In this document: piece by piece, positions 1-31,116 of the stretch | Layout: every line of letters begins with the position of its first letter | Numbering within the stretch: position 1 is the stretch's first letter | Assembly (NCBI GenBank): GCA_028713415.1 | Contig: JAQTOI010000005.1 | Coordinates: 1-46,464 of the forward strand | Direction: 5' to 3' | DNA length: 46,464 bases | Source: Candidatus Omnitrophota bacterium | GTDB taxonomy: Bacteria > Omnitrophota > Gorgyraeia > Duberdicusellales > 4484-171 | Program-made: the position numbers and the translations under genes | The notes under the pieces: generated by a model | What the model saw: only the letters and a program-made list of their open reading frames with translations | Told to the model about the DNA's origin: nothing | The model's database searches: none

Positions 1-118
1 CCTCTATTTTTATGCGGCAGTCAGACTGGATAAAATCAGGCACATTCCAGGTGCAGTTTTCCACGATCGCGGATACACCGGTGCATTCAGTTATGGGTAT
101 CCAGGTGCCGGTGCCTCA
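1..118 (-). other. In-frame continuation of the giant repeat protein beyond a TGA
   Basis: Downstream of the TGA (116-118) the same reading frame stays open to base 1. It encodes GTGTWIPITEC, then NCTWNVPDF, then CRIKIE. These strands match the second half of the other Ig-like repeats (compare 'CSYAWTVPANY' and 'KIRVSI' in an earlier repeat). The stop therefore falls in the middle of a domain. It may be a nonsense mutation, a sequencing error or readthrough. Other genes here use TGA as a normal stop, so a changed genetic code is unlikely. Confidence 0.75.
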
Positions 119-5863: not shown

Positions 5864-6322
5864 TCAATACCCGCTCTTTAAACTTTCGCCTGAATCTTGC
5901 TCCTGGGCCGTTGGGGGCGTGCGCGTTGATGGACGCACAAAAATAATGGCTTTGGCAACGCGCGTGATTTTTGTGCCGTCAGGAGTATCTTCGCTTGCCT
6001 CTTCATACTGAATGCTCACCGTATCTCCCGGCTGTATCTGGCTTAAGCTTTGCAGGTGCTGCAAAACCATATTTTTGCCAAAAGGGAGCAGTATCTCATC
6101 TTCGGAAGTCCCGCTTGAAGCATACACTATGGCAATGCGGTCTTTTCCTATCCAGGTTACCTCACCTTGTATTTCTTTCATTTTGCTGGTGCGCTTTGTT
6201 TTAGTTTCCTGCGTGAGGGGGCTTTGAGCAAAGCATAATCCAGTAAGTACGCATAGCGCAACAAATACGAAACAAACTGCTATACACACTCTATCGACTC
6301 TAATACATATATTAGCTAACAT
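5864..6322 (-). CDS. Small exported protein, unknown function
   Basis: A 152-residue protein. Residues ~10-33 form a hydrophobic signal peptide ending LCFAQ, so it is probably periplasmic. The mature part has a compact predicted beta fold (EIQGEVTWIGKDRIAIVY, then a KNMVLQHLQSLSQIQPGDTV stretch) and a Pro/Thr/Gln-rich C-terminal tail. The 'QPGDTVSIQYEE' stretch resembles small OB-like or barrel modules, but I cannot assign a family. A G-rich Shine-Dalgarno (GGGGGG) lies just upstream of the ATG at 6320-6322. It ends in tandem TGA-TAA stops 30 bp before the giant repeat protein, suggesting a two-gene operon and a possible accessory role. Confidence 0.8.
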   Translation of the reverse strand: MLANICIRVDRVCIAVCFVFVALCVLTGLCFAQSPLTQETKTKRTSKMKEIQGEVTWIGKDRIAIVYASSGTSEDEILLPFGKNMVLQHLQSLSQIQPGDTVSIQYEEASEDTPDGTKITRVAKAIIFVRPSTRTPPTAQEQDSGESLKSGY

Positions 6323-7023: not shown

Positions 7024-7068
7024 GTTTTTGATATCCCCTTGTGCATCAACCTTATCCCGCTCGTCCGC

Positions 7069-11499: not shown

Positions 11500-13893
11500 C
11501 TATTTTCGAAAAGGCGCAAGCGCCTCGCAAAGCCCAGGATTATCCACGCCGCGCTGTTTGGCTTTCTCGTAATATTCTACAGCCAGCTCATACTGTTTCT
11601 GCTGAAAATAAACCAGTGCTAAATTATTGTATGCGCTTGGCGAATCCGGTTCCATTTCTATCGCTATTCTGTATAAGCCTATCGCCTCTTCCTGCTTTCC
11701 CATGGCGCGGTATACAGCAGCAAGATTATTGTAAACAGCGCTAACTTTAGGATTAAGCATAATTGCTTTTTGATACATATCTATTGCCTGCGGGTAATTG
11801 CCTGCGTCAGCATAAAGCTCGCCAAGATTAAAGTATGCCTCCTCTTGCAGGGGATTAATTGCTAATGCTTTATTAAAAGACGCTATGGCTGCAGGGATAT
11901 CTTTTAGTTTTTTAAAAATGAGCCCCATATGAACATGCATGCGAGTATCTTTAAAATCAAACTCTGCTGCTTTCTTAAGTGCATCGACGCCTTCTTTTGT
12001 CCGGCCATCGCGCAAATAAACAAGGCCTAAATTATAGTATGCTCTTGCATAGGCGGGGTTTAACGCTATTGAGCGCTTATACGCAGCCGCTGCTTCTTTG
12101 GGCCTGCCCAATTCCAGGAGAACAACACCGAGATTATTATAAGCCTCTGCGTAGTAAGGATTACGCCCAATGGCTTCTTTATAAAAACGAAGTGCGTTCT
12201 CTTTGTCCCCACTAATATAATAGATAGTGCCAAGGCGGTCATAAGCTATGGCAAAGTTAGGGTTTATTTCTATAGCTTTCCTGAAACATTCAAAAGCCTT
12301 ATCTAATTCGCCTCTTTGTTTATACACCGCGCCCAAATTCAATTGGACTTCTGCGCTCGGGGAGATAATGCTTGCCTTATTAAGCGCCGACAGAGCGTCT
12401 TCTGTTTTACCGGTAAATTGATTCACTATCCCCAGATTGAAATAAGCTAAAAAATAATCGGGCTTTAATGCGATTGCGTCCTGGTATGAAACTCTCGCTT
12501 TTTCAAACTTCCCATTATGAAAATATTCGTTCCCTAAATTATAACGTACTCTGTAGCTACCCGGAGAATTCTTTATGGCGGTTTGCCAAAAAGTAATCGG
12601 GTCTTTCCAGTCTAAATTTCTACGCACAGTAGTATACGAATATAACGTAAGGAGCGCAATAAAACTAATTATAACTATCTTTCGCAAGATCCGCTGAAGG
12701 GGCGGCCTGTTACCTGAAGTTAGAGAAAGTTTTTGCAAGCTTGCGGCAAGTAAAAAGCAAAATCCAAAAGACGGGATATACAGGCGCTGTTCAGCAATAG
12801 GCCTTCCCTGAAAGAAGATAATGTTTGAAACAGGAAGAATAGTTAAAAAAATCCAAAAAAGCGAAAATACAGCTAGCCGGGAAGCCCTAAAGAGCCTAAG
12901 CATAAGTAGCATCACTATCCCTATCAGGAAAATGGAAGAGGTAACCCCTGGTTCACGGATAGATTGAGGAATATTAAAGAGCCGGTCAACGCTCAAGTGG
13001 GTAGGAAGAATTAAAAGCTTTGTATAGTAACCAATGGTTTTGACAACTGCAAGGATATGGGAGTAACTATTTATGGGCGCACCTTCAGCAGGTAATGTTC
13101 CGCCGGACGCCAGAGCCCTTTCGAAGATAAAAAATAATCCTCCTACTATAAAAAAAGGAATAACACTAAAGACAAATCTTGGCCGCTTGCTCCGTCTAAG
13201 AAACAGAAAGCCATAAAGCATAAAAATAAACGGTATCATAAGAGCCGCTTCTTTGGAAAAAAGAGCTAAGATATAACAGAAAATACTTACGCCATACTCT
13301 ACTGCGTTCCTGCTGAGGGAAAAACGCATAAAAAAAAGAAAAGCAAGCAGAAAAAAGCCCAACGTCAAGAGGTCAGAACGATTTTTAATCCAGGTAACGG
13401 ATTCGGTATGGATAGGGTGTGTGGCAAATAAAGCGGCACTCATAAAAGGTATTGCTAAAAACCACGACCAATTAAAGCGCCCTGCCTCTTCTTTTCTTTG
13501 CACATTTCCAGCCAAAGACAAAAGGGCCAGCGCCACCAGATAGACAAAAATAACATTAGCACTATGTAAAATAAGATTGGTGAGATGATAGCCTCTTGGA
13601 TTAAGCCTCCAGAAAAAATAATCAAGCACCAAGGTAACCTCTCTTACCGGACGATACGCTCCTCTTGAATCAGGCGCGTAATCCTTCCAGTACTGCAGGC
13701 TAAATAAAAAAGGTATGCTCTTAAGAGACTGAATGTATTTATTCTCAACGATAAGGCTCTTGTCGTCCCAGATAAACGCGTTGTCTAGCGTGTTAGAAAA
13801 AACAACAAAGGAAATCAGAACGAGAAGGATACAGGAAAGGATGTGTTTAAATTTTGTCATTTCTACAGGTCGCTTATTCACAAAACTCGTCAT
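11500..13893 (-). CDS. TMTC-like O-mannosyltransferase with ten TPRs (long paralogue)
   Basis: Up to 797 residues. It is a paralogue of the downstream gene, with the same landmarks: AFIWDDKSLI, YRPVREVTLVLDYFFW, GYHLTNLILH, HPIHTESVTWIKNRSDLL and LFSKEAALMIP. The membrane domain covers ~12-440. About ten TPRs follow (~445-785), each of the YNLGxxYxxxGxxExAxxxYxxAI type, ending EALAPFRK. The TPRs probably position acceptor proteins. The start is uncertain: ATG at 13893 or, more likely from where the hydrophobic segment begins, ATG at 13858-13860 (MTKFKHIL); neither has a good Shine-Dalgarno. It leads a two-gene unit; a simple-word repeat spacer lies upstream. Confidence 0.85.
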   Translation of the reverse strand: MTSFVNKRPVEMTKFKHILSCILLVLISFVVFSNTLDNAFIWDDKSLIVENKYIQSLKSIPFLFSLQYWKDYAPDSRGAYRPVREVTLVLDYFFWRLNPRGYHLTNLILHSANVIFVYLVALALLSLAGNVQRKEEAGRFNWSWFLAIPFMSAALFATHPIHTESVTWIKNRSDLLTLGFFLLAFLFFMRFSLSRNAVEYGVSIFCYILALFSKEAALMIPFIFMLYGFLFLRRSKRPRFVFSVIPFFIVGGLFFIFERALASGGTLPAEGAPINSYSHILAVVKTIGYYTKLLILPTHLSVDRLFNIPQSIREPGVTSSIFLIGIVMLLMLRLFRASRLAVFSLFWIFLTILPVSNIIFFQGRPIAEQRLYIPSFGFCFLLAASLQKLSLTSGNRPPLQRILRKIVIISFIALLTLYSYTTVRRNLDWKDPITFWQTAIKNSPGSYRVRYNLGNEYFHNGKFEKARVSYQDAIALKPDYFLAYFNLGIVNQFTGKTEDALSALNKASIISPSAEVQLNLGAVYKQRGELDKAFECFRKAIEINPNFAIAYDRLGTIYYISGDKENALRFYKEAIGRNPYYAEAYNNLGVVLLELGRPKEAAAAYKRSIALNPAYARAYYNLGLVYLRDGRTKEGVDALKKAAEFDFKDTRMHVHMGLIFKKLKDIPAAIASFNKALAINPLQEEAYFNLGELYADAGNYPQAIDMYQKAIMLNPKVSAVYNNLAAVYRAMGKQEEAIGLYRIAIEMEPDSPSAYNNLALVYFQQKQYELAVEYYEKAKQRGVDNPGLCEALAPFRK

Positions 13894-17914: not shown

Positions 17915-18478
17915 TTATTTTTTCTGCGGTTCTGCTGCTTGCGGCTTTGCCACGGATACAGGCTTTACCACGGATACAGGCTTTGCCACGGCTGCAGAAG
18001 GCATATTGCTTGTGAAAATATACAATGAAGCCGGCCCGTTTATTGTACGCATGGCAAGTACGCCTTGTATATTATCGCCGACCAGCTCTACTCTCCACAT
18101 GGCCACTTTATCTTCGCCTAATCTCTGTACCGTTTCAAGCATAACCGAACTATCTTCCCTGACAATAGGCGTAAAATTTGAGCTACTGTAACCTTTTTCG
18201 CTTAAATTGCGCGAAGACATACTGGTTCCGGAGAAAGTCAAAACATCGCTTTCAGCGGGCGCCTTGGGTGAATTTTGAGGAGTGAGGCGAATCATCCAGG
18301 CCTGGCTGTTAAGTTTTTCGACGGCTGCGGCTGCCAACGCTTCCGTTTGCGCCTGGCTCATCACGGTAGTTGTGGTGATAACTCTAGTCACAGTTTGTTT
18401 TTTAGACGCAGCGAAACTTAAAGTAACAAAAGAAAGCACAAAAGCGACGCTTAAGACTAATACAACTCCCTTCTTCAT
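17915..18478 (-). CDS. Small exported protein, unknown function
   Basis: 187 residues from the ATG at 18476-18478, which has a strong Shine-Dalgarno (AAGGAGG, 7 nt away); the longer frame to 18505 is less likely. The signal peptide MKKGVVLVLSVAFVLSFVTL ends SFAAS. A Thr-rich segment (VITTTTV) follows, then a helical and a beta-rich region (MWRVELVGDNIQGVLAMR) and a VSVVKPVSVAKP repeat tail. The tail repeat is also visible in the DNA (cacggatacaggctt-type words at ~17950-17990). It has its own promoter just downstream of the secretin locus and may be an exported partner or substrate of it. The family is not recognised. Confidence 0.8.
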   Translation of the reverse strand: MKKGVVLVLSVAFVLSFVTLSFAASKKQTVTRVITTTTVMSQAQTEALAAAAVEKLNSQAWMIRLTPQNSPKAPAESDVLTFSGTSMSSRNLSEKGYSSSNFTPIVREDSSVMLETVQRLGEDKVAMWRVELVGDNIQGVLAMRTINGPASLYIFTSNMPSAAVAKPVSVVKPVSVAKPQAAEPQKK

Positions 18479-18526
18479 AAGCCCTCCTTTTTCCATGCTT
18501 TGCAATAATACATTTTAGTGGCCACA

Positions 18527-18556
18527 ATTATGCCCGAATGGACAATTAATTGTCTA
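18527..18556 (-). promoter_or_regulatory. Promoter with palindromic operator for the small exported protein
   Basis: On the minus strand there is a TAGACA -35 (18551-18556), an 18-nt spacer and a CATAAT -10 (18527-18532). A perfect 14-bp palindrome, GACAATTAATTGTC (18541-18554), overlaps the -35 and spacer, the position expected for a regulator site. Confidence 0.55.
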
Positions 18557-18621
18557 CGATTTTTTATATCCTTAATATATCATTAAAGAGCGCGATTGCA
18601 ACAGGAAAATTGAAGCCTTTG

Positions 18622-19734
18622 CTATTTCTCTGCTTTTTGCGGTACGACAAAACCTGTAGTATTCGTAACGGTGCCGTTAGCCGATGCCGGCCCCGGAGAA
18701 ATCGCTCCTGATAAAACCGGATATTTCACTATCTTGGCGGTTTTTTTTAAGTTTTCCAGCCAGATATTGTAGCCCTCGAATTTCTTTCGTATTTTTACTT
18801 TTTCCAAAAATGAGTCTTTTGATTTAGCATATTGCGCATCATCAGGCGCGCGCTTATCTAAAATTTTGAATACGGCAAATTTCTTATAGACCGGCCTGGG
18901 CGGGTAAAATTCTCCTGCATTTTTTTTCATCATCTTATTGGCTGCGTCCTGCGGTACCGCCCAGAGATCCACAAGATAAGCCACACTTACCGCCCCCGGA
19001 CTTTTAAAATCAACAGGGCGTTTCTTTTTCTCCTGTTCCCATAATCTTTTATTTCGGCTTATCTTTTTATAGAAATCTTCTGCTTCCTGTTCCGTATCAA
19101 AAAGTACAATTTCAATATTTAAGACGCTGGCTTCGTTAAGGAATGCCTGGTAAATTTCCTCCTCGCTGATTTTAGGTTCAATTTTCTCCGTAATATATTT
19201 GCGAAGTTTATCCAGTTGGATTAAGTGCTTTATCTGATTTTCAAAAATCTCTGCGGGTTCATTAACTTTTTCCTTAAGCCATGCTTCGTAGGCTCCTTTA
19301 TCCTTTCGCAAATCCTGGCTGGCTCCTGCGCCAACCAGTGCTTTTTCTATTTCCGCATCGGCCTCCTGGGGACTGACAGTTATATTTTCCTGAAACGCAA
19401 TGAACGAGAGCAAAAGCTGTTCCCAGGTCAAGTCTTCTATTTCCTTTTCCGTTTCCGGCCTGCCGCGGCCTTTGTTCCCGAATACAATAATGCCGTTATG
19501 TATAAAATAATAATTACTTAAAGGCACCTTTACGCCGAAAAACTCACCTGCGTATACTTCATTATCGGCAGCCGCCGGCTGTGGCGGTTTTTTTGTTTCA
19601 GCGGAGCTAGTTTTCGCCTTAGGTTTTTTAGTGTTTTCTGTTTTTAAGAGTGTTTTTGCGCAGGCTATGCAACATACTGTAAAAACCAGAATAAAAGTGA
19701 ATACAAAAATTTTGCGCGTTTTGTCAAAGAACAT
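18622..19734 (-). CDS. SurA/PpiC-like periplasmic chaperone or lipoprotein
   Basis: About 370 residues from the ATG at 19732-19734, chosen because GGAG lies 8 nt upstream; the longer start at 19761 overlaps the previous gene. The N-terminal hydrophobic segment ends VCCIACAK, an imperfect lipobox, so this is a lipoprotein or a periplasmic protein. Residues ~95-200 resemble the SurA N-terminal helical chaperone domain (LTWEQLLLSFIAFQENITVS, then IKHLIQLDKLRKYI). The second half (NIEIVLFDTEQEAEDFYKKI, GAVSVAYLVDLWAVP) resembles a parvulin-like fold. I would not claim isomerase activity. It is the last gene of the secretin locus (4 bp after the coiled-coil/TPR gene) and could fold or guide secretins or cargo. 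Confidence 0.7.
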   Translation of the reverse strand: MFFDKTRKIFVFTFILVFTVCCIACAKTLLKTENTKKPKAKTSSAETKKPPQPAAADNEVYAGEFFGVKVPLSNYYFIHNGIIVFGNKGRGRPETEKEIEDLTWEQLLLSFIAFQENITVSPQEADAEIEKALVGAGASQDLRKDKGAYEAWLKEKVNEPAEIFENQIKHLIQLDKLRKYITEKIEPKISEEEIYQAFLNEASVLNIEIVLFDTEQEAEDFYKKISRNKRLWEQEKKKRPVDFKSPGAVSVAYLVDLWAVPQDAANKMMKKNAGEFYPPRPVYKKFAVFKILDKRAPDDAQYAKSKDSFLEKVKIRKKFEGYNIWLENLKKTAKIVKYPVLSGAISPGPASANGTVTNTTGFVVPQKAEK

Positions 19735-19738
19735 CTTA

Positions 19739-20884
19739 TTACTCCATAGGTTCTTTACCACCCCAGGTTTCCCAGGTGAGAATATATTTTTTTACCCAAT
19801 CGACGTCTTTATCGTCCGATTTTGCCAGACGAAGGTATTGACGAAAATGCTCAACCGCTTTAGCCCTGTTAACCAGATACTCGGCGTAAATGTAGCCTAA
19901 ATTAAAGTGAGAATAAGCGTCATCCGGGGTCAACTCAACGGCTTTTTCGAATTCCGCCACGGCGCGCGAATATTCTTTCTGCTTTAAATAAAATACGCCC
20001 ATATTGTAATGCATTGTAGCAGTATTACGGATAAGTGACTTATTCTGCCTGGCTATTTCAGTAAATTTAGCAGGGTCCCGGGCAACCTTTTTTTCAAAAG
20101 TTTGAGTCTTCTTTACCGCTTCAGCGTATTTTTTTGTGAGCTCTTTCTCTCGCAGCTCTAAATCCTCTATTTTCTCTTTTAACTTTGCTTCGCTCTCCCT
20201 TAGCTTATTAATTTCGTTTTGAGCCTGGTTTAAATTGCTTTGCTGGCCGGTTTTCAGGCGCGTAATCTCGTCTTGCGCGCTCCTAAGGCTGCCTGCCTGG
20301 TTGCTCTTTAAGCGCTCTACCTCTTTTTGGGCTAAATCTAGACGCTGGGCAAGATCAGCATTCTGGCGTTCCAAGCCTGCGACGGCCGAGCCTGCTTTTT
20401 GCTCCTCAAGCGCCGCCTGGAGCTGTTCTTTCTCTTTAGAAAGCTGCTTCTTTATAAGCCCAAGCGCTTTTATTTGTTGCTTGAAAGCGGAATTTTGCTT
20501 TAAAACTTCTTCTCTCTTTGCTATAAGAGCTTCTTTTTCTTTCTTAAATTCTTCAGCGGACACTTCGAGTTCTGTCAAACGATTGTTATTAGCGATATTT
20601 TTCTTTATCTGGACAAGAAGGTTATCGCGGTCTAAGGCTATTGAATCATAGTCTTTACGTAATTTATCATAATCGTTCTGCGCTTTAACGTAAGCGTCGC
20701 GTAACTCAACATTTTCTTTGCTAAATTTACCGTAATCAACGCTTTGCTTTTTTAAATCCTGCGAAAGCTTGTTGGTTTTTATACCAAAATAAACACTTGC
20801 TTCAAGCAAAACAATTATAGGGATAATAATAAGAAGTGTTTTACGGTTAATTAGCTTCCTTAATAATCCTATATCAATAGCCAT
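19739..20884 (-). CDS. Membrane-anchored coiled-coil/TPR protein B
   Basis: 381 residues. A single membrane segment at ~15-33 (TLLIIIPIIVLLEASVYFGI) precedes a long coiled coil (~35-270) rich in Lys, Glu, Gln and Leu. Two TPRs follow (~288-355: MHYNMGVFYLKQKEYSRAVA and SHFNLGYIYAEY). The C-terminal motif KKYILTWETW is shared with the larger protein A. Its ATG directly abuts the stop of secretin B (no spacer), so the two are translationally linked. It probably spans the periplasm and docks on the secretin, in the way PilF/PilW-type TPR pilotins or TsaP-like factors do; this role is an inference. Confidence 0.8.
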   Translation of the reverse strand: MAIDIGLLRKLINRKTLLIIIPIIVLLEASVYFGIKTNKLSQDLKKQSVDYGKFSKENVELRDAYVKAQNDYDKLRKDYDSIALDRDNLLVQIKKNIANNNRLTELEVSAEEFKKEKEALIAKREEVLKQNSAFKQQIKALGLIKKQLSKEKEQLQAALEEQKAGSAVAGLERQNADLAQRLDLAQKEVERLKSNQAGSLRSAQDEITRLKTGQQSNLNQAQNEINKLRESEAKLKEKIEDLELREKELTKKYAEAVKKTQTFEKKVARDPAKFTEIARQNKSLIRNTATMHYNMGVFYLKQKEYSRAVAEFEKAVELTPDDAYSHFNLGYIYAEYLVNRAKAVEHFRQYLRLAKSDDKDVDWVKKYILTWETWGGKEPME

Positions 20885-22804
20885 TTATTGCTCCTCGCCT
20901 TTGTTTTCGCTAAAAGTAAGGTAATTTTTATAAGTCTTAGGCTGTAAGCCTCCTCCCTCGACTGCTCCCGAACCGCCGCTTGTTGGCGCAAGTAAACTCT
21001 TATCCGGAGTTATCGGCTTATAGTCCTGGAATTCTTTTGGAAACTTATCGCCTATTGTGCGCGGCGCACCGGCTTCAAAGTTATTACCAGATATAATATG
21101 AGGAGTAATTACTACTAAAAGTTCGGTCCTGTCGGTCTCATCGCTTGCCTTTTTAAAAAGTTTCCCGAGAAACGGTATATTGCTTATTCCGGGCACACCA
21201 TCAGAGTTATGAATTTTTTGCTCCTGGCGCATACCGCCGATAAGCAATGTTGTGCCGTCTTTCATCATTACCGTAGTTTCCGTAAGCGATGTATCGATAA
21301 TTGGGATTTTATTGTTAGTGGGCGTTGTTAATATTGAGCTGACAGAGGAAATTTCCGGCTTAATCTTCATAATGATATAGCCGTCATCGTTGATTATGGG
21401 AGTCACCGAAAGCTGAATGCCCACGTCTACGAACTGGACTTCTTCCGAAACCGTGCTTGTGGACTGCCCCGTTGTTGTCGTGGTAGTAACGTAGGCCTGG
21501 CGTTCGCCGATGTGAATTTTCGCCTCTTGATTATTCACGACGACAATTTTTGGATTAGCCAATACTCTGGTCTGGCCCAGGGTATTTAAATAATTAAGGA
21601 GCACATCAAAATCGCGCCCCGTGCCAAACATGCCGAAATGTAGATTTTCTCCGGGAGATGTTTTAACGCTGGTATTTAACGTGGAGGTTGTCCCGCTAAA
21701 AGGGTAATAGGCGATATTGGCGTCAGTATCGTATTGCTCTGTCCGCGTAGTAAATCCAGGAGTAGTTGTGCCGGCGTTCATGACACTGTAAGGGGATGTC
21801 CCTATATATGTCGGGCCGAATGCTTTCGATATTTTGAATATCCCTTCCCATTCCAAGCCGGTGTCAAGCTTATCGGTAAGCTTGATTTTAACAATTTTTG
21901 TGTCAACTAAAACTTCTTTGGTGATTTTATCGAGGCTCGCGATAAGCTCCGAGATTTCCTCCATCCGCTCTGAAAGCGTCTGCACGATAACCTGATTATT
22001 GCGTTCATCGGCTTTAACCGAGCCGACACTTTTTGCGTCAAGCCTAGAGCGCAATATATCCTCCACATCCTTAGCTCTGGCATAGTTTAAAGTAAACACT
22101 CTAACTATATTCTTCTTCTCAAATTCGTTCAAAGAATCCTCCATCTGGGCGATGCGCTCCGGAATATCCATTATAAGCACGTTACCGGATTCTTTGTCCG
22201 TTATTACGCGGCCTAAATCGCTCTTTAAAGCATCGAGCACGGTAAAAGCCTGTTCCGGGATAGCGTACTTTAACCTCAGCATCTTGACTTGGCGCAAGTC
22301 ATAGAAATTTTTCCCATAAAATGTTTTATATTCGGCCTCGGTCATCACGGTATAGATTTTCCCGATTTTGGCATAAGCCAAACCGTTTGAACGCAGCATT
22401 AAATCAAAAACATCTCTAAATGGGACGTTTTCGATGCTCAAGGATACTCGCCCCGAAACATTTTTGGTAGGAACTATATTGAGCCCGCTTTTTGTGGCAA
22501 GAAATTTTAAAGCCTCAATGACGTCTATGTTGCGCAGGTCAAGAGATACTGACTGGTTAAACAGCTCTTCCTCGGTCATGCTCTGGTGTTTTAATTTTAA
22601 AGCTTCTTCTTCGCTCACCTCTGTTTCTGGCTCCGGATTAGAAACTTGCTCTGTAACTGGTTCTTGTGCCTCTGAGGCAGCCGGCTCCGGCACAGCCTGA
22701 GCTTCTCCGGCCTCTTCCTGCGCAAAGGAAGGAACGTTAAAGAGCAGCAGCCCGCTAATTATAAAAAAGGAAATAATTTTTTTAGACAAATCTTTTTGGT
22801 GCAT
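20885..22804 (-). CDS. Secretin B (GspD/PilQ superfamily outer-membrane channel)
   Basis: 639 residues. The signal peptide ends SFAQ (~29). A Glu/Pro-rich linker (30-80) precedes an STN/N0 domain (~86-150: SLDLRNIDVIEALKFLA, GRVSLSIENVPFRDVF). NolW/N1-type repeats follow (~185-300, containing VKADERNNQVIVQT), then the secretin beta-domain (~400-570) with VDVGIQLSVTPIINDDGYI, LIGGMRQEQ, GVPGISNIPFLGKLFK and ELLVVITPHII. The YVTTTTTTG stretch is a Thr-rich gate-like loop. The C-terminal tail is Gly/Pro-rich. It oligomerises as an outer-membrane pore for protein or pilus export. It is a close paralogue of secretin A and has only N0 and N1, fewer domains than a typical GspD. Confidence 0.93.
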   Translation of the reverse strand: MHQKDLSKKIISFFIISGLLLFNVPSFAQEEAGEAQAVPEPAASEAQEPVTEQVSNPEPETEVSEEEALKLKHQSMTEEELFNQSVSLDLRNIDVIEALKFLATKSGLNIVPTKNVSGRVSLSIENVPFRDVFDLMLRSNGLAYAKIGKIYTVMTEAEYKTFYGKNFYDLRQVKMLRLKYAIPEQAFTVLDALKSDLGRVITDKESGNVLIMDIPERIAQMEDSLNEFEKKNIVRVFTLNYARAKDVEDILRSRLDAKSVGSVKADERNNQVIVQTLSERMEEISELIASLDKITKEVLVDTKIVKIKLTDKLDTGLEWEGIFKISKAFGPTYIGTSPYSVMNAGTTTPGFTTRTEQYDTDANIAYYPFSGTTSTLNTSVKTSPGENLHFGMFGTGRDFDVLLNYLNTLGQTRVLANPKIVVVNNQEAKIHIGERQAYVTTTTTTGQSTSTVSEEVQFVDVGIQLSVTPIINDDGYIIMKIKPEISSVSSILTTPTNNKIPIIDTSLTETTVMMKDGTTLLIGGMRQEQKIHNSDGVPGISNIPFLGKLFKKASDETDRTELLVVITPHIISGNNFEAGAPRTIGDKFPKEFQDYKPITPDKSLLAPTSGGSGAVEGGGLQPKTYKNYLTFSENKGEEQ

Positions 22805-22828
22805 ATATTCTTAAATTAGAACACAGTA

Positions 22829-22922
22829 TCACGTAACAGGTATCAGGTATTTTCAGGCTTTCAGCTATCAGCTTACAGCTTTCAGCTTTTTAAAAAAGTT
22901 TCTTTAGCTGATAGCTTTAACA
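22829..22922. repeat. Simple-word spacer (CAGCTTTCAGCT family)
   Basis: TTTCAGCTATCAGCTTACAGCTTTCAGC is followed by AGCTGATAGCT, giving a 10-bp inverted pair around an A/T-rich centre. It separates coiled-coil protein A from secretin B. The same family of words recurs at ~36770-36830 and ~43660-43680. Confidence 0.6.
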
Positions 22923-22926
22923 TTTT

Positions 22927-25374
22927 TTAATGCGGTTCTACTTTCTCATCCTGCCAGGTTTCCCAGGTCAGTATATATTTTTTGGCTTTATCGACATCTT
23001 TATCCTTAGGGTCGATAGAAAGGTAACGCTTGAAATGCGCAATAGCTTTAGGTTTATTATCCATATATTCTGAATAAATAAGCCCCAGATTATAATGCGT
23101 AGCGGCGTCGTCTGGGTTAAGCTCTAAAACTTTCTCAAATTCCACTATCGCTTCGTTATAATCCTGCCGCTGGAGATAAAAAACCCCCAGATTATAATGC
23201 AAAACCGAGTTCTCTTTAAGCAGCCTGTCTTTAAGTATGCTTGTCTTAGAAAGCCTGGTGGCGTACAAATCTAATTTCTGCTTAAGAAGTTTATTGTCCT
23301 TAAAGAGAACGTTATTCTTTTCCTGAATCTCATTCCTCTGTATTTCGGCCTCGCGTAGCTGCGTCTCGTAATTCTGATGCAATGTCAACAAATCTTTGAT
23401 ATTTTTTTCTTTAGAATCTATGGCCATAGCCATCTGCTCGCCTTTAGCGGCCCATGCCTGTTCTTTAAGGCGGTAATCTTTAAGTATGCTTTCAAATGAT
23501 AAATTTTGTGACTGCAGCGAATTGATTTTTATCTCATCGGTCTTAGCTTTTTCAATATAGTCTTCCTGCTTTTTTGAAAGTTCATTCTGTTTATTGTCAA
23601 GACTCGCTATAAGTTTTATTTTCTCCTGCAAAAACGCATTGAGTTGTTCAAACTGGCTCTGAATATTATTCCTCTCGCTCTGCAATTGCGCCACTTTAAT
23701 TTCGTAATCTCTACCCTGCGCACTTAAGCGTTTCCCGTCCTCGACTAAAGAATCGATAGTTTTTCCTTTCTCTTCAAGCGTTAACGAAAGTATTTTCATT
23801 TGTTTCTTTAAATCTTCCCGCTCATTTTGCAATTGTAAAATTTGGGCCTCATCCCCTTTTAATTGAATTCCGGTTATCTGTTTCTCTTGAGTTAAATCCG
23901 CTATCGTTTTATCTTTATCCTGATTAGAGGCGGTTAACTGCTCCGTTTGATTAATCAGCGATTGTTCCCTTAAACTACAATCTTTAAATTTAGTTTCAAT
24001 GGCCTGTTTCTCCATGATAAGGCCTGAGAGCTTGACATCGAGGTCTTTGAGGCTTGCTGTGTTCTGTGTTTTATCCTGCTCAAGAGATGCGATGGCCTTT
24101 AGCTTATCGTCTATAGTGGCGGATAATTGTTGGGAACGCAGCTGCCAGCCTGCTTCTTTAGTCCTATAGGCGTTGATTTGAGCCTCAAAAGAGGCTTTAT
24201 CGCTGGCTGCCTGGGTGAGTTTTCCTTCCAGGTCCTTGATTTGCACAAGTAGCGCCTGTTTTGATCTGTCAAGTTCGCTTAAAGATTTTTCTTTATCGGC
24301 GCTGGAAGCGCTAAGCTGCTGCAACTGGGAAGTAAGAGAGCGTTCTTTATCTTTGAGATCTTTAAGCTGGCTTTGGAGAGCTGACTTATCGCTAGAGCTT
24401 TGAGTGAGTTGCGCTTGCAGGTCTTTAAGCGCAGCGGTGTTTTGCGATTTATCTTTAGTAAGGTCTGAAATTGTTTTTTCCCTCTCGGCCATAGTGGCGG
24501 TAAGTTGCTGCAGGCGGGTTTGCATTCCCGCTTCTTTGGTTTTATAGATGTTAAGTTGGCTATCAAGGGCTGATTTATTGCCGGTAACTTGAGTGAGTTG
24601 TGCTTGGAGTTCCTTGACTTGGCTAAGGAGTGATTCTTTGGTTTTATAAAGCTCGGACAGAGACTTATCTTTATCCAGCGCAGAAGAAGAAAGCTGCTGT
24701 AGTTGAGAAGCAAAAGATTGTTCTTTATCTTTGAGATCTTTAAGCTGGCCCTGGAGAGAGGCTTTATCGGATGTTAAGTTTGAGAGTTTGTTTTCCAGCT
24801 CTTTAATTGCTGCTGTGTTCTGTGTTTTATCCTGCTCAAGAGATGCGATGGCCTTTAGCTTATCGTCTATAGTGGCGGATAATTGTTGGGAACGCAGCTG
24901 CCAGCCTGCTTCTTTAGTCCTATAGGCGTTGATTTGAGCCTCAAAAGAGGCTTTATCGCTGGCTGCCTGGGTGAGTTTTCCTTCCAGGTCCTTGATTTGC
25001 ACAAGTAGCGCCTGTTTTGATCTGTCAAGTTCGCTTAAAGATTTTTCTTTATCGGCGCTGGAAGCGCTAAGCTGCTGCAACTGGGAAGTAAGAGAGCGTT
25101 CTTTATCTTTGAGATCTTTAAGCTGGTTCCCAAGAGAGGCTTTATCGGATGTTAAGTTTGAGAGCCTCATCTCGTAATCTTTGCTCATCCTTTCGTATTC
25201 TGCCTGCAGCGCCAGAGATTTCTCGCGCGATAAGGCAAGCTCTTCTTTTATTGCTGAAAAATCATTTAAGACATTGGCCAACTCATCTTCATAGCTTGCC
25301 TGCCCGTTATTATTCTGCGCAAATACACCACAACAAAAACCTGCTATTGCTAAAAAAATAATTAGCCTATTCAT
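22927..25374 (-). CDS. Exported long coiled-coil/TPR protein A
   Basis: About 815 residues from the ATG at 25372-25374, which has an AAGGAG Shine-Dalgarno and leads straight into a signal peptide (MNRLIIFLAIAGFCCGVFAQ); the longer frame adds 23 unlikely residues. The body is one long coiled coil made of ~126-residue (18-heptad) units, each opening KDLKDKE; units 1 and 3 are almost identical even in DNA. TPRs lie at ~720-790 (LHYNLGVFYLQRQDYNEAIV and THYNLGLIYSEY), then KKYILTWETW as in protein B. It lies 65 bp after secretin A. It is probably a periplasmic rod or ruler acting with secretin A; this role is an inference. Confidence 0.83.
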   Translation of the reverse strand: MNRLIIFLAIAGFCCGVFAQNNNGQASYEDELANVLNDFSAIKEELALSREKSLALQAEYERMSKDYEMRLSNLTSDKASLGNQLKDLKDKERSLTSQLQQLSASSADKEKSLSELDRSKQALLVQIKDLEGKLTQAASDKASFEAQINAYRTKEAGWQLRSQQLSATIDDKLKAIASLEQDKTQNTAAIKELENKLSNLTSDKASLQGQLKDLKDKEQSFASQLQQLSSSALDKDKSLSELYKTKESLLSQVKELQAQLTQVTGNKSALDSQLNIYKTKEAGMQTRLQQLTATMAEREKTISDLTKDKSQNTAALKDLQAQLTQSSSDKSALQSQLKDLKDKERSLTSQLQQLSASSADKEKSLSELDRSKQALLVQIKDLEGKLTQAASDKASFEAQINAYRTKEAGWQLRSQQLSATIDDKLKAIASLEQDKTQNTASLKDLDVKLSGLIMEKQAIETKFKDCSLREQSLINQTEQLTASNQDKDKTIADLTQEKQITGIQLKGDEAQILQLQNEREDLKKQMKILSLTLEEKGKTIDSLVEDGKRLSAQGRDYEIKVAQLQSERNNIQSQFEQLNAFLQEKIKLIASLDNKQNELSKKQEDYIEKAKTDEIKINSLQSQNLSFESILKDYRLKEQAWAAKGEQMAMAIDSKEKNIKDLLTLHQNYETQLREAEIQRNEIQEKNNVLFKDNKLLKQKLDLYATRLSKTSILKDRLLKENSVLHYNLGVFYLQRQDYNEAIVEFEKVLELNPDDAATHYNLGLIYSEYMDNKPKAIAHFKRYLSIDPKDKDVDKAKKYILTWETWQDEKVEPH
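24055..24370. repeat. 316-bp perfect direct repeat, copy 1 (within coiled-coil protein A)
   Basis: Identical to 24811-25126 across all 316 bases, offset exactly 756 bp (252 codons, two 126-residue units). The unit lying between them is clearly diverged. Confidence 0.9.
24811..25126. repeat. 316-bp perfect direct repeat, copy 2 (within coiled-coil protein A)
   Basis: Partner of 24055-24370; it encodes the first coiled-coil unit. Identity begins at TGCTGTGTTC and ends at AAGCTGG. Beyond that the copies differ (CTTTGG against TTCCC). Confidence 0.9.
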
Positions 25375-25439
25375 CACCTGACTCCTTCGTGCACTATGGC
25401 ACAAAGCATCCGTAACCCTCGATAATATAATTCGAAATA

Positions 25440-27425
25440 TCAATTATACGGTTTAAAACCCTTAACTGCCAAATTTGCCGAAGGTTTACCTACGGCAGCA
25501 TCTTTATCTTGAAAGTTTACCTCTTGTCTTGGCAAAGTTCCCTCGTATGACTTAAAACCCTTAACCGCTACGCCTTCCTTAAAAGGCAAAGCTATATCAG
25601 AGGCCTGCACGCCCGTTGCGCCCTCGACGCTGCCTATTTTAAGGCCTTTAGGCAAAGACGCGCCCGCGGAAAAAGGATTCGGCTTTATCTGCTGGGGTGC
25701 TACTTCCGGTTTAAATACATCAAATTTTTTCGCGGGCTTAACCGGGAATTTATCCGCGTCTTTGACGGTAACAAATTTATCGCCTTCAAAAATAATAGGG
25801 GTAATCATTATGACTAATTCTACTCTCTCCATTTTTCGCGTTGAGTTTTTAAATAAAAAACCTATAATCGGGATATTGCTAAGATAAGGCACCCCTTCGG
25901 AGCTTTCAGCGCGTTCTTCCCTGCCTAAACCGCCAAGGATAATCGTGGAGCCGTCTTTAGCAAGAACGGTTGTTTCGGCGGTGTTTGTGTCTATGATCGG
26001 AACGAGGTTGTTACTTGAAGATTTTATGGTACCGATGATACTGCTTATTTCAGGTTTTACTTTCATGGTAATGTAGCCATCGTCATTTATAGTAGGCGTA
26101 ACCGAAAGCCTCACTCCTACGTCAACGTAGGTTACTTCTTCCGAAACTGTACTGGTAGTGGTCCCGGTGGTAGTTGTTGTTGTAATATAGGCCTGGCGTT
26201 CGCCGATGTGAATTTTTGCTTCCTGGTTATTCACAACCGCCAAGGATGGGCTTGCAATAATCTTTGACTTTCCCAAGGTCTGAAGGTAGTTTACCAAGAC
26301 GTCAAAATCTCTTTTTCCATCAACTATGCCGATATGCATATTTTTTCCGGGAGTGACCTTAGCGCTTGAATTTAAACTTGAGGTGGTGCCGCTGAAAGGA
26401 TACATCCCTATTTGGCCACTAGCGTTGTATACATCGGATCTCGTATTAAATGTCGGGCTGGTTATACCCGCGGTCATGGCGCTGAAAGGATAAGAGCCCA
26501 GATAAGCCATTCCATATTGTTTTGCAATCTCAAAAAGCCCTTCCCATTGAATTCCTTTATCCAGCTGGTCGCCTAGCTTTATTTTTATAATCTTACAATC
26601 TATGAGCACCGCTTTTGTTTTTTTATCAAGGCTGGCAATCAGCTCTTCAATATTTTTCATTCTTTCAGGCAAAGTTTGCACTATTACCTGATTAGTGCGC
26701 TCGTCCGCCTTTACCATACCTACTTTTTTTAAATCAAGCTGGGCCTTCAATTGCTCTTCGACATCCCTTGCCTTTGCGTATTTCAAAGTGAATACTTTAA
26801 AACTATTTTTCTGTTCCATCGCCTCAAGGGCCGCTTGAGCCTGGGCTATCCTTGCCGGAGTATCTATAATCACCACAGAGCCTGATTCCGATTCAACCAA
26901 CAGGCGCCCAATATCGCTCTTAAGCGCATCCAGGAGGCTGAAAGCCTGTTCCGGTATGGCATATTTGAGCCGGAACACTTTAACCTGCCTGGTGTCAAAA
27001 AAATTCCTCCCGTAAAGCTGCTTATATTCAGCCTCCGTCATCACGTTATATATATCGCCGCGCTTATCATAAGCGAGAGTATTCGAGCGCAGCATGATAT
27101 CGAATACGTCTTTTACCGCGACATTTTCTACGTTGAGGGTAACGCGCCCGGAAACCTTTTGAGTCGGCACAATGTTATATCCTGATTTTAAAGAAAAAAA
27201 CTTCAATGCCTCTATAATCTCAATATTACGCAGATTCAAGGATATTCTTTCCTCTTGCGCTTCTTTATTTAAATCATTATCTTTTGCGGATGCTGCGGGT
27301 AAAATCTGCTTATCGGCATCTTGGGAAATTTGCGCCAATACCCCCGGGGAACCGAGCGGACACGTAAGTATAAATGCAAGGTAAAGTGCACAAAATTTTT
27401 TAAAACTGCAGCTTTTGCTTTTCAT
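25440..27425 (-). CDS. Secretin A (GspD/PilQ superfamily outer-membrane channel)
   Basis: 661 residues. The signal peptide ends GVLAQ (~32). The STN/N0 domain is at ~60-130 (SLNLRNIEIIEALKFFSLK), and the NolW-type N1 region contains VKADERTNQVIVQTLPERM. The secretin domain contains VDVGVRLSVTPTINDDGYI, ILGGLGREE, GVPYLSNIPIIGFLFK and ELVIMITPIIF. It has the same Thr-rich stretch (YITTTTTTG) as secretin B. The C-terminal tail, longer than in B, carries a repeated KGFKPYN/KGFKSY motif. Its ATG overlaps the stop of the GspC-like gene by 4 bp (ATGA). It is an outer-membrane export pore, paralogous with secretin B throughout. Confidence 0.93.
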   Translation of the reverse strand: MKSKSCSFKKFCALYLAFILTCPLGSPGVLAQISQDADKQILPAASAKDNDLNKEAQEERISLNLRNIEIIEALKFFSLKSGYNIVPTQKVSGRVTLNVENVAVKDVFDIMLRSNTLAYDKRGDIYNVMTEAEYKQLYGRNFFDTRQVKVFRLKYAIPEQAFSLLDALKSDIGRLLVESESGSVVIIDTPARIAQAQAALEAMEQKNSFKVFTLKYAKARDVEEQLKAQLDLKKVGMVKADERTNQVIVQTLPERMKNIEELIASLDKKTKAVLIDCKIIKIKLGDQLDKGIQWEGLFEIAKQYGMAYLGSYPFSAMTAGITSPTFNTRSDVYNASGQIGMYPFSGTTSSLNSSAKVTPGKNMHIGIVDGKRDFDVLVNYLQTLGKSKIIASPSLAVVNNQEAKIHIGERQAYITTTTTTGTTTSTVSEEVTYVDVGVRLSVTPTINDDGYITMKVKPEISSIIGTIKSSSNNLVPIIDTNTAETTVLAKDGSTIILGGLGREERAESSEGVPYLSNIPIIGFLFKNSTRKMERVELVIMITPIIFEGDKFVTVKDADKFPVKPAKKFDVFKPEVAPQQIKPNPFSAGASLPKGLKIGSVEGATGVQASDIALPFKEGVAVKGFKSYEGTLPRQEVNFQDKDAAVGKPSANLAVKGFKPYN

Positions 27426-28096
27426 CGCAACTCTATTTCCTCTCCGGCATAACTCAATATCACTTTATCTTTAAACACAGATTTTAGTTTGATTTTGTTA
27501 TCTATGAGCTGGCCTTTCTTTAAAAACAGCGTGCGTTTATTTTGCGTATCTTCGATCATCACGTCTGGGTCATTAGACCAGGATATGCCGACCAGGCGCA
27601 AATCCTTGGTTTCCTCCATAACCTTACTTATGCTGGGTTTTCCGGTAACCATCTGGCTGATTTTTTTCGTTCCCATGGTAAATATATCACGCTCGCGCGC
27701 TTTCTCTAAATAGTAGGATGCTGTCTTAAGAAAAGAAATTGTCTGTGTAGCTTTATCCTCTTTGCCCGCGGCGGAAATTTTTACCTCAAACCCTTTCTGC
27801 AAAGATATTACCGAGTTAATAAGGCTGGCTACAAAATAAACCAGTAGGATAAATATAATAAATTGCAGTGCGACATTAACAAGTTTAATATCAATCTGCG
27901 AGAAATCAGGGATTTTAAAACCGCCTTTAATCCTGTGCCTAAAAAAGGAAAATCTCCCGCGCAGAGCCCCTAATGAAAATAAGCTAAAGCCCTGGTGTTT
28001 AATTGCAGCTGAGGCGCCTTGACGCGCAGGGCCATGCGTTTCTATCAAATTAAGAAGCTCTTTTTCTGGCGTGGGTGATTTACTGTCTTTTTCCAT
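27422..28096 (-). CDS. GspC/PilP-like inner-membrane connector
   Basis: 224 residues. A basic cytoplasmic N-terminus (~1-73) is followed by one membrane helix (~74-95, VALQFIIFILLVYFVASLIN). The periplasmic C-terminal ~65 residues have the homology-region pattern of GspC/PilP: LRLVGISWSNDPDVMIED, TLFLKKGQLI, and LKSVFKDKVILSY ending GEEIELR. In type II secretion and type IV pili this domain binds secretin N0 and links it to the inner-membrane platform. The 4-bp overlap with secretin A supports that job here. No PDZ domain is present. Confidence 0.8.
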   Translation of the reverse strand: MEKDSKSPTPEKELLNLIETHGPARQGASAAIKHQGFSLFSLGALRGRFSFFRHRIKGGFKIPDFSQIDIKLVNVALQFIIFILLVYFVASLINSVISLQKGFEVKISAAGKEDKATQTISFLKTASYYLEKARERDIFTMGTKKISQMVTGKPSISKVMEETKDLRLVGISWSNDPDVMIEDTQNKRTLFLKKGQLIDNKIKLKSVFKDKVILSYAGEEIELR

Positions 28097-28101
28097 AAAA
28101 A

Positions 28102-28195
28102 ATAGATGTCAGAGGTCAGATGTCAGAATTCAGAGGTTTCTACTTTCTGCCTTCTGTCCTCTGTCTTCTGTCCTCTGTCATCTGCCCTCTGTATT
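28102..28195. repeat. Simple-word spacer (GTCAGAGGTCAGA / CCTCTGTCTTCTG family)
   Basis: The left half is made of GTCAGA/TCAGAGG words and the right half of CTTCTGTCCTCTGTC words. The two halves are roughly complementary and could form a long imperfect hairpin between two genes of the secretin operon. Confidence 0.6.
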
Positions 28196-29794
28196 ATTTT
28201 CCGCGCGCAGCAATTCAAGTTCTACGTAAAGGCTGCTGACTTTCTTCTTTAAAGAATCATTAAGCGCTTTAGCCTGCTGCAGGTTTTCTGCCGCCTCTCT
28301 CTGGTAATCTTTGCCTGAAGCTAAGGCATTCTGCATCTCAGTAAGCTGCGTTTCCATATTATTGACGCTTTGGCGCAAACCAGCGATACTTTTTTCTTTT
28401 TCTTCTAATTCTGCGAGTAAAGAATTTTTTTCATCGTTGGTCTTATCCAGCAACGCCTTCATTAAAGCAACATCATTTTGTTTATTATTGGCCTCAAGCT
28501 CTTTCTTTGCGATTACAGCGGAGAGTTCTGCGTAGGATTTTTTGGTTTCCTCATAATCTTTGCTAAGCTGGGCAATATTTGATTGAAGCTCTTGAATCTG
28601 CATCTCATCTTGGGCGCGCGCTTTCCTTAATCCATCAACCTCGCCTTCATAGCTTACTTTTGAAGCGCGCAAGGCCTCCAATTCGCTAAGCGCGGCCTCT
28701 CTTTCCTTATCCCTATCGCCTGAGGTGCCGGAAAGCTGCGCAAGGTTTCTTTCTAACTCTTCATTAACGGCAATTTGTTTATTTAAATCAGCTTTGACTC
28801 TGTTTAGCTCTTCTTCAAGCGCCGCTTTGGCACTACTCGCGTCATTTAACCTGTTTTCCAAGTTAACATAAGTTTGGGCTAAATCGTTTTTGCTTGATTT
28901 TAAATCTCCGAGCTCTGTTTCAATGTTCGTTTTAAATGACTGCAGCTGTTCTAACTCTCCCGCTATGAGTTTACGCTCTTTTTCTTTTTCGTTAAGGGCG
29001 GCAGCTAAATCAGCAACATTTTTATTCAATGCCTCATTTGAGGCGAGTTGCTTGCCCAATTCTTCTTTTATCCTGGCTAATTCTTCTTCCGATGCTTTTT
29101 TTGCCAGTTGGGCCTCATGCAGCTGAGTTTCCAGGCCGGACTGATTATTGGCAAGCGAATTAATTTTATTGTTAAGGTTATTAATTTCAGTCTGAAGATT
29201 TAACTTAACGGTCTCAAATTTAGAGATACTCAAATCTCTTTGCGCGATTTCCCGGTTAAGATTGCTTAAAACAGCGGAGAATTTTGCCTTTAACTTATCT
29301 TCAAGCTTAGCTGTAGTCGCAATTTCATCTTTCAAGCGCGCGTTTTCCTCGGAAAGCTTAAGGGCTTCTTTTTCTTTCGCCTCAAGCAGGCTATTTAAGA
29401 GAACAATTTTCTCTTTTAAAAAATTATTTGTTTCGTTAATGCCCTTCAGGTAGCCTTTAATGCGCCACAAACTCGTTTCAACTCCGCCTTCCTGGCCGCT
29501 GCCCCCTTCTTCTTGCGCAAGCCTGAGCGAGGTGCGGGTAGTTGCTTTACTTAAAGTAAGAGATTCTCTTGAGCCTGTCTTTGTGCTGGCTAAATTTCTG
29601 CGCGTAGACTGCGATAATTTACCCTGCGCAGCCTGCGCGCAAGACAGCTTCAGCGCCCTGCCAAGCTCAAAGTGCGAAGCTCGGGAACTAACGCGGCTTA
29701 TGGCGATGCCTAAAAGTAAGCAACCCAATAAAGCCAAAGAAAAAAACATTACCTTTACGTTCATTGCGCCTCGATTTTTTTTGAAATATTTCAT
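28178..29794 (-). CDS. Membrane-anchored coiled-coil protein
   Basis: 538 residues. A membrane segment at ~12-33 (VKVMFFSLALLGCLLLGIAI) precedes a Ser/Thr/Arg-rich linker (~35-100). An almost unbroken coiled coil (~110-530) follows, rich in Leu, Glu, Lys, Asn and Ala (GQLEELQ-like heptads, e.g. LKSSKNDLAQTYVNLENRL). No TPR or enzyme motif is seen. The ATG at 29792-29794 has AGGA 6 nt upstream; an internal ATG (MNVKV) is a possible alternative. It lies 8 bp after the ExeA-like ATPase gene and upstream of the GspC-like gene, so it probably belongs to the inner-membrane part of the secretin system. The function is unknown. Confidence 0.78.
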   Translation of the reverse strand: MKYFKKNRGAMNVKVMFFSLALLGCLLLGIAISRVSSRASHFELGRALKLSCAQAAQGKLSQSTRRNLASTKTGSRESLTLSKATTRTSLRLAQEEGGSGQEGGVETSLWRIKGYLKGINETNNFLKEKIVLLNSLLEAKEKEALKLSEENARLKDEIATTAKLEDKLKAKFSAVLSNLNREIAQRDLSISKFETVKLNLQTEINNLNNKINSLANNQSGLETQLHEAQLAKKASEEELARIKEELGKQLASNEALNKNVADLAAALNEKEKERKLIAGELEQLQSFKTNIETELGDLKSSKNDLAQTYVNLENRLNDASSAKAALEEELNRVKADLNKQIAVNEELERNLAQLSGTSGDRDKEREAALSELEALRASKVSYEGEVDGLRKARAQDEMQIQELQSNIAQLSKDYEETKKSYAELSAVIAKKELEANNKQNDVALMKALLDKTNDEKNSLLAELEEKEKSIAGLRQSVNNMETQLTEMQNALASGKDYQREAAENLQQAKALNDSLKKKVSSLYVELELLRAENNTEGR

Positions 29795-29802
29795 AATAAA
29801 TC

Positions 29803-30684
29803 CTAATCGGCTTTCATAACCGCTTTTTGGGGCAGTATATTTTTATTATGCCAGCCAAGCTTCGTCTCCTGGTCTATTACCTCGCGGATGATTTCGGCGT
29901 CAATAACAAATTTATTATGCAGCACCAGGCTCTTTAAAGCCTTATGGCAAAGCATGGTTATCTGACGCGGGTAGCCGCGTGTGTATTGGTATATTTCCTT
30001 AATTGCGTCATCAAGAAAAATATACATGTTTGCTTTATAACCCGCTTGGCGCAGGCGAAATTCAATTAATTCCCTGGTCTCTGAGTAATCAAGAGGGTTA
30101 AGGGTATATTTAAAACTGATACGGTCAAAAAAATTGGCAATATTCATAATGCGGGAATAAAGTTCAAGTTGGCCTAAAAGAATCAGCTGCAGAAGTTTAA
30201 ATTCATTGGTTTCATAATTAAGCAGCACGCGCAGGAGCTCCAGGGACCCTTCGGTTAACTTCTGAGCTTCATCTATAATTAAAGTAATAGTCTTATGTTC
30301 ATTCACGCCTTTTTGGAACAGAAACCTTTCCAAAGCTTCCCGTAAATCCAAAACAGTGGCGCTTGAGCCGCTGGTAATATCGTGTATTTCGAAATTACGC
30401 GCAAGAGACGTCAGGAAAAGATGTTCGCTGTCAAACGTAGGGTCAAGCACCATATGGAAAATAAAATCATCGCGCGATTTTAATTCCTGGATCAGTTTGC
30501 GCGAAAGCGTGGTCTTTCCCGTTCCCACATCGCCCAGAATCACTGAAAGCCCGCGTTTCAGCCTAAGTTCAATAAGAATGTTTGTGAGAGCCGCCTCGTG
30601 TTCTTTTGAGAGATAAAAAAAATCGGGGTCAGGGCTTGTGGAAAATGGCTCTCTTTCAAATCCTAATATTTTATAGTAACTCAT
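29803..30684 (-). CDS. ExeA/GspA-type AAA+ ATPase
   Basis: 293 residues. It opens MSYYKILGFEREPFSTSPDP, the usual ExeA-family start. Walker A is GDVGTGKT (51-58), Walker B is LIIDE (135-139), and the sensor-type strand LLQLILLGQ lies near 163-171. The C-terminal lid follows (YTRGYPRQITMLCHKAL). ExeA/GspA ATPases help secretin assembly across peptidoglycan in some type II systems; relatives serve pili and transposons. A peptidoglycan-binding C-terminal domain of full ExeA is absent, so this is the short form. It is the first gene of the secretin locus, 8 bp before the coiled-coil gene. Confidence 0.88.
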   Translation of the reverse strand: MSYYKILGFEREPFSTSPDPDFFYLSKEHEAALTNILIELRLKRGLSVILGDVGTGKTTLSRKLIQELKSRDDFIFHMVLDPTFDSEHLFLTSLARNFEIHDITSGSSATVLDLREALERFLFQKGVNEHKTITLIIDEAQKLTEGSLELLRVLLNYETNEFKLLQLILLGQLELYSRIMNIANFFDRISFKYTLNPLDYSETRELIEFRLRQAGYKANMYIFLDDAIKEIYQYTRGYPRQITMLCHKALKSLVLHNKFVIDAEIIREVIDQETKLGWHNKNILPQKAVMKAD

Positions 30685-30690
30685 AAAAAC

Positions 30691-30862
30691 AGTTTAAAGT
30701 TATAAGTGCCTAAAGTGAGCTAAAGTTAAATTCCCCCAACTTTAGTCACTTCACACTTTAGTTCACTTTACACTTCCCCTAACTTTAGTCACTTCACACT
30801 TTAGCTCACTTTACACTTCCCCTAACTTTAGTCACTTCACACTTTAGCTCACTTCAAACTTA
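30691..30862. repeat. Tandem 43-bp repeats with an inverted leading copy
   Basis: A 43-bp unit beginning AACTTTAGTCACTTCACACT starts at 30738, 30781 and 30824 (about 2.9 copies). The preceding 30691-30732 (TAAGTGCCTAAAGTGAGC..) is the same word family inverted. It lies between the ExeA-like gene and the MerR gene and could affect transcription between them. There are no unique spacers, so it is not CRISPR. Confidence 0.8.
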
Positions 30863-30864
30863 AT

Positions 30865-31116
30865 CTATATACCTATCAACTTCTTCCTTATAAGCCTCAA
30901 GGAATACCCTTCTTTCTTAAGCTCTTCTATTTGCGTCAGGCGTTTACCGATAATCTCGCTGTCATAGAAACGCACGTTCCCCTTCTTGGTTAAAACCGGA
31001 AGCAACCCAAAATCTGTATAGTGATTAACGGTTTGGTAGGTGATATTGTACTTAGTGACAATATCTTTGGCGGAAATGATTTTGTTCTGGTCGTTACTCT
31101 TATTATTTTCGGCCAT
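30865..31116 (-). CDS. MerR-family DNA-binding regulator (short)
   Basis: 83 residues. The MerR-type winged helix spans ~13-80: ISAKDIVTKYNITYQTVNHY, TDFGLLPV, RFYDSEI, then RLTQIEELKKEGYSLRLIRK, the family's second helix pair. It lacks the C-terminal dimerisation coil and effector domain of classical MerR proteins, so it resembles excisionase-like or minimal MerR regulators. It is encoded upstream of the secretin locus on the same strand, separated by a 43-bp repeat array. A promoter with a palindrome lies ~250 bp upstream, possibly its own operator. Confidence 0.85.
   Translation of the reverse strand: MAENNKSNDQNKIISAKDIVTKYNITYQTVNHYTDFGLLPVLTKKGNVRFYDSEIIGKRLTQIEELKKEGYSLRLIRKKLIGI

Follow-up and report, generated by a model that had tools for sequence, protein, structure and literature searches.

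Described systems closest to the locus

Type IX secretion combines the export of the SprB adhesin with a gliding motor. By functional analogy alone, the locus described here would likewise export a giant repeat adhesin with the help of a dedicated machine and a motor; no T9SS homologue was identified in it. The Omnitrophota are a phylum of tiny bacteria that are abundant and, almost without exception, uncultured. The most similar loci described so far come from this same phylum: in the portion of their paper accessible to us, Seymour et al. (2023; PMC10066038) described F-type ATPase clusters, termed "symbiotic", that lie no more than 10 kb from type-4a pili, as well as giant ORFs of more than 20 kb, which were presented separately from these pili/F-ATPase loci. 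An F-type ATPase beside a pilus/T2SS-type platform and giant ORFs of more than 20 kb are thus common to both studies. In that portion of the paper, however, the giant ORFs were not tied to the F-ATPase locus, and neither a T2SS nor secretins nor an ExeA-C-D module were given for it, whereas here a single locus comprises all these elements, with a T2SS-like platform.

Counterparts of ExeA/GspA, GspD, GspE, GspF, GspG, I, J, K, L and M of type II secretion systems (T2SS) are all present, along with a connector that resembles GspC by matches below cut-off. In contrast to T2SS, the locus has two secretins for one connector, coiled-coil/TPR proteins, a GspE with a PilZ domain and an MA-type peptidase, it includes F-type ATPase genes and giant proteins, and no GspH was called. 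Type IVa pili (PilB/C/M/N/O/P/Q) share with it a homologous ATPase, the platform and the secretin superfamily, but the locus differs from them by a GspG-type major subunit, a fused GspL, a T2SSC-like connector and secretins of a type without AMIN domain. What is new here is the platform with T2SS features (GspG equivalog, GspK, fused GspL, T2SSM_b), the presence of the giants in the locus and the secretin module as its outer half. In our literature search, we met with neither the secretin module nor the joined locus, and found no paper on two secretins within one T2SS-like operon and no assigned export route for the giant proteins of Omnitrophota.

The operon and its two secretins

The window, i.e., the whole stretch of 46,464 nucleotides that was analysed, corresponds to the entire contig C5 of a genome of 2.17 Mb in 160 contigs. 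The sequence-only reading had listed a series of overlapping or abutting genes running from an ExeA-like ATPase to a SurA-like factor. Every gene of this list was found in that order between 17915 and 30684, in a compact minus-strand operon (Table 1) in which most junctions abut, overlap or leave short gaps. The list had missed the MerR-like gene that heads the operon and is its probable regulator. Three 43-bp tandem repeats (30731-30861) lie between this gene and the ExeA gene.

Table 1. Features of the window, with coordinates and supporting evidence.
Feature	Position	Strand	Evidence
N-terminal 1905 aa of giant Ig-like-repeat surface protein 1	116..5833	-	34% identity to the giant of L063, E 8e-69
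Small secreted protein, cluster c12, directly before the giant gene	5864..6322	-	Same place in L032, L045, L047, L054, L063, G133
Second membrane protein with TPR tail	9508..11457	-	TPR matches
TPR-tailed membrane protein lying between giant gene and module	11500..13893	-	TPR matches; relative in the same place in G127
Small secreted beta-barrel protein, 196 aa, conserved with the module	17915..18505	-	42-sequence alignment
SurA/PPIC-like periplasmic protein, weak assignment	18622..19761	-	Conserved in module loci
Coiled-coil/TPR protein B	19739..20884	-	TPRs, E 2e-9; N-terminal TM
Secretin D2 (secretin B of the sequence-only reading)	20885..22804	-	STN + 2 Secretin_N + Secretin; D2 clade
Coiled-coil/TPR protein A	22927..25443	-	C-terminal TPRs (Pfam); internal 378-bp repeats
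Secretin D1 (secretin A of the sequence-only reading)	25440..27425	-	STN + 2 Secretin_N + Secretin; D1 clade
GspC-like inner-membrane connector, single copy	27422..28096	-	T2SSC, E 3e-5; one TM at 75-93
Membrane-anchored coiled-coil protein	28178..29794	-	One N-terminal TM
ExeA/GspA-type AAA ATPase	29803..30684	-	AAA_22, E 2e-20; P-loop GDVGTGKT
MerR-like small DNA-binding protein	30865..31116	-	Pfam MerR_1, E 1e-8; family precedes the module in many relatives

The ExeA-like protein also matched TIGR03015, the XrtA/PEP-CTERM-type ATPase, with an E-value of 1e-54, below the cut-off. For the connector, the Pfam T2SSC match covers the right region, although both this match and that to TIGR01713 (E 2e-4) are below cut-off. 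The anchored coiled-coil protein is confined to loci resembling the window and sits between ExeA and GspC in five of them (L025, L026, L027, L028, and L030). The gene of the proposed SurA-like factor is indeed there but its label has weak support: a Pfam search with the window protein gave no match, and relatives alone matched Rotamase_2 (3e-4) and SurA_N_3 (0.005), both below cut-off. In the small beta-barrel protein, W, E, and G are invariant; its AlphaFold model (pLDDT 84, about 95 in the barrel) gave weak Foldseek matches of lipocalin/nitrobindin type.

Both secretins exhibit an N0-like STN, two Secretin_N and a Secretin domain (Pfam core E-values of 1e-48 and 5e-47). They had been described as paralogues in every domain; identities of 60-69% bear this out for N0, N1, N2 and the secretin core, but the C-terminal tail (18%) is an exception. 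A scan for relatives of D1 recovered 77 loci, nearly all of them titled Omnitrophota, and the core ExeA-GspC-secretin-coiled-coil/TPR recurs in the relatives, mostly behind a MerR-like gene, in forms with one or two secretins. No second GspC gene preceded D2 in any locus read. In the secretin tree (92 module rows), the module secretins were separate from those of the phylum's ordinary T2SS, and the D1 and D2 copies formed clades common to many loci, in two groups. Secretin B is thus not a local oddity. Its absence from all relatives, which the sequence-only reading had named as grounds for abandoning its proposal, was not observed, since many relatives have the second secretin. The form in which two secretins share a single connector gene is old and widespread, and the tree is consistent with two old duplications or with one duplication plus losses. 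The sequences suggest that the single connector can accept both secretins as docking partners, the difference between them being one of assembly or of placement in the outer membrane.

In some relatives (L048, L059, L062, L094, G079, G091, and G138), the module is followed by genes for an HD-domain protein, a coiled-coil protein and a Wza-like protein, several of these loci having a second ExeA. A role in polysaccharide export was rejected because these genes do not follow the module in the window. The same Wza-like followers were observed in a two-secretin branch comprising L048:13227-19473, L059, L062, L094, L238, and L242; L048 also encodes an FhaC-like protein.

The platform on a second contig and in relatives

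The sequence-only reading had noted that no GspE, GspF or pseudopilin gene lies nearby. This is correct for contig C5, on which no T2SSE or T2SSF gene was found (the genome holds several elsewhere), but not for the locus, since the platform is present on contig C9 of the same genome and within the same locus in relatives. These genes are missing near the operon because the contig ends inside this locus. C9 starts with 387 codons corresponding to the C-terminus of a second giant protein, giant 2 (65% identical to that of G133), followed by AtpC, AtpE, b/delta, alpha, gamma, and beta, and then by the whole platform, GspE-F-MA-type peptidase-G-I-J-K-L-M, with neither connector nor secretin beside it. 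In the window, the gene of giant 1 is located downstream of the operon and runs off the left end. Both contigs, carrying fragments of giant proteins at their ends, therefore end inside the giant-gene region, and we infer that C5 (minus strand) and C9 are neighbours whose joint is not in the assembly.

The platform GspG (135 bits) passed the NCBIfam GspG equivalog cut-off of 88.85, whereas GspE, GspF and GspK had their best scores with T2SS models, below the equivalog cut-offs. The minor pseudopilins are GspJ- and GspK-like, with an N_methyl match in I. GspL corresponds to a fused protein with PilM_2 and PilN, GspM matched T2SSM_b (32.1 bits for a cut-off of 21.7), and GspH was not called. GspE bears a PilZ domain and follows an MshEN-like protein, which suggests control by c-di-GMP. 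The adjacent F-type ATPase cluster (L105:1176-6706) encodes epsilon, c, a b/delta fusion, alpha, gamma and beta, of which alpha and beta passed curated cut-offs; no a-subunit (PF00119) was detected in the cluster, in the whole genome, or in nine relatives with the same cluster.

Searching related genomes for the same order, we recovered a co-oriented array from module to platform in G133, G071, G127, and the diverged G136. In G133, the array occupies about 41 kb, with all genes co-oriented, in the order MerR-ExeA-C-D-ccTPR-barrel-SurA-c12-giant1-giant2-AtpC-E-b/delta-alpha-gamma-beta-MshEN-GspE-F-peptidase-G-I-J-K-L-M; the three others exhibit this order plus extra genes or longer giants. In two further loci (L071 and L073), J-K-L-M of a C9-type platform lie about 3 kb upstream of the module. 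The GspL of C9 grouped with these two module-side copies, apart from ordinary T2SS, and the C9-type was likewise separate from the T2SS type in the GspF tree. Linkage of the two halves is not obligatory, since they are about 730 kb apart on the complete chromosome that carries L067. We left out G128, in which the module lies 4 kb from GspL, since the junction, with a secretin fragment and a GspK fragment, may be a misassembly.

Among 147 genomes of the class, the module secretin was present in 17 of the 20 genomes with the platform, 11 had the secretin alone and 116 had neither, using limits (above 350 bits for C9-type GspL, above 420 bits for the module secretin) that were set after the scores were seen. 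The corresponding odds ratio is 60, with a Fisher p of 3e-12 that the kinship of the genomes makes too small. In eight families (f4, f9, f12, f19, f26, f37, f42, and f43), the module-positive genomes were the platform-positive ones, and both halves were absent from the others; in f19, G127, whose contig ends inside the platform, was scored by the peptidase marker. The platform GspL was found in 11 of 12 named module genomes, and no platform was detected in three genomes with the module (G124, G138, and G015). The synteny and the co-occurrence point to GspE and GspF of C9 belonging with the module of the window.

Giant protein 1 has an N-terminal TM/signal segment and contains 12% Asn, with 122 N-x-S/T sequons, nearly three times the 44.5 +/- 5.6 obtained in shuffles. 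Two STT3-type proteins are encoded in the genome, on C32 and C105. The giant Ig-repeat proteins are probably N-glycosylated. An in-frame TGA at 116-118, near the contig end, could be a real stop or an assembly error; homology continues past it as far as that end. In G071 and G127, the open frames before AtpC reach 8,471 and 10,674 aa, respectively. Giant 2 ends with an Ig-like and helical domain and a conserved transmembrane helix, which form a separate small gene in some relatives; Foldseek gave nothing significant for the C-terminal domain (model pLDDT 69.5). Homologues of this C-terminal TM domain and of the MA-type peptidase (on C9, L105:1-1164 and L105:10807-11682) adjoin in about ten other Omnitrophota loci, including G058:C23, G005:C6, G064:C93, and G119:C47, suggesting a functional pair. 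The window further contains, in the stretch separating the operon from the giant gene, a HepT/MNT-type toxin-antitoxin pair (6377-7077) and the two membrane proteins with TPR tails, which we take to be TMTC-like.

A probable second T2SS-like machine and the alternatives

We consider it likely, from gene content and order, that the operon supplies one half of a complete second T2SS-like machine, the part that lies in the outer membrane and spans the periplasm, and that the inner half is encoded on C9, most likely in the same locus. This machine is specific to Omnitrophota and separate from the ordinary T2SS of the genome, which is split between C125 (F-G-H-I-J) and C41 (K-L-M-ExeA-C-D) and is complete in a relative (L090). 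The secretin of this ordinary T2SS (L101:11450-13525, on C41) has a C-terminal TonB-like domain.

The proposal of a new export system thus stands as regards a distinct locus with two secretins and one connector, but not as regards the lack of GspE, GspF and pseudopilins, for which C9 has a matching platform. A self-standing system powered by ExeA alone would agree with the window contig, free of T2SSE/T2SSF genes, and with the few genomes in which a module but no platform was detected. We dropped this reading once C9 and the relatives had been found, and consider it very improbable given the platform co-oriented in the same locus of four relatives, the continuation of the giant gene on C9 and the strong co-occurrence. 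The sequence-only reading had itself foreseen that the locus might turn out to be a fragment of a standard type II or pilus operon: the window is indeed a piece of a T2SS-like locus, but this locus is not a standard T2SS, of which the genome has a separate one. That the module serves this ordinary T2SS as an accessory outer-membrane port, sharing its platform, could be suggested by the T2SSC-like connectors and the use of ExeA in both, but the ordinary T2SS has its own ExeA-GspC-GspD, the module secretins form a separate clade, and the module tracks the F-ATPase-linked platform instead; such sharing is thus disfavoured and we give it hardly any credence.

That the platform is a type IVa pilus serving attachment or movement on surfaces, with the module as its outer-membrane part, is improbable, if less so than these two readings. 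The clusters beside the "symbiotic" F-ATPase are called type-4a pili in the accessible portion of Seymour et al. (2023; PMC10066038), GspE and GspL also scored with PilB and PilM models, and the secretins scored slightly better with PilQ than with GspD. However, the major subunit is a GspG equivalog, with PilA-type models far below cut-off, the minor subunits match GspJ and GspK, and, as in GspL, PilM and PilN form a fused protein. Pfam gave no AMIN match in the module secretins, for which the PilQ and GspD models were both below cut-off, and the connector is T2SSC-like. As to a retraction ATPase (PilT), no second T2SSE-type ATPase was found in the locus of G133, G071 or on C9, but the genome has shorter T2SSE matches elsewhere.

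In the second T2SS-like machine that we favour, the inner-membrane half would be formed by GspE with its PilZ domain, GspF, GspG, I, J, K, the PilM-PilN-fused GspL, GspM and the MA-type peptidase. GspC would dock on the N0 domain of both secretins, so that one platform could serve either of two pores differing mainly in their C-terminal tails, while ExeA and the coiled-coil/TPR proteins may help to build these pores or to place them through the cell wall. With GspE/F as its drive, a pseudopilus would carry to the cell surface the giant Ig-repeat proteins whose genes lie between the two halves; c-di-GMP would regulate the machine via MshEN and PilZ, and the adjacent F-type ATPase cluster may work with it. 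Their position, signal peptide and conservation incline us, by a modest degree, to regard the giant proteins as the cargo; we know of no T2SS that exports proteins as large. More speculatively, and with a probability that we consider low, the machine could use two alternative pores on a single connector, be mechanically coupled to the F-type ATPase (c and b/delta, no a) and export or move giant N-glycosylated proteins for attachment to, or predation on, other cells.

The locus provides a natural example of two secretins with a single connector. It unites a T2SS-like machine, a two-pore module, an unusual F-type ATPase and giant proteins in one gene order, so that three separately reported "symbiosis traits" become one testable machine and the export route of the giant proteins becomes testable.
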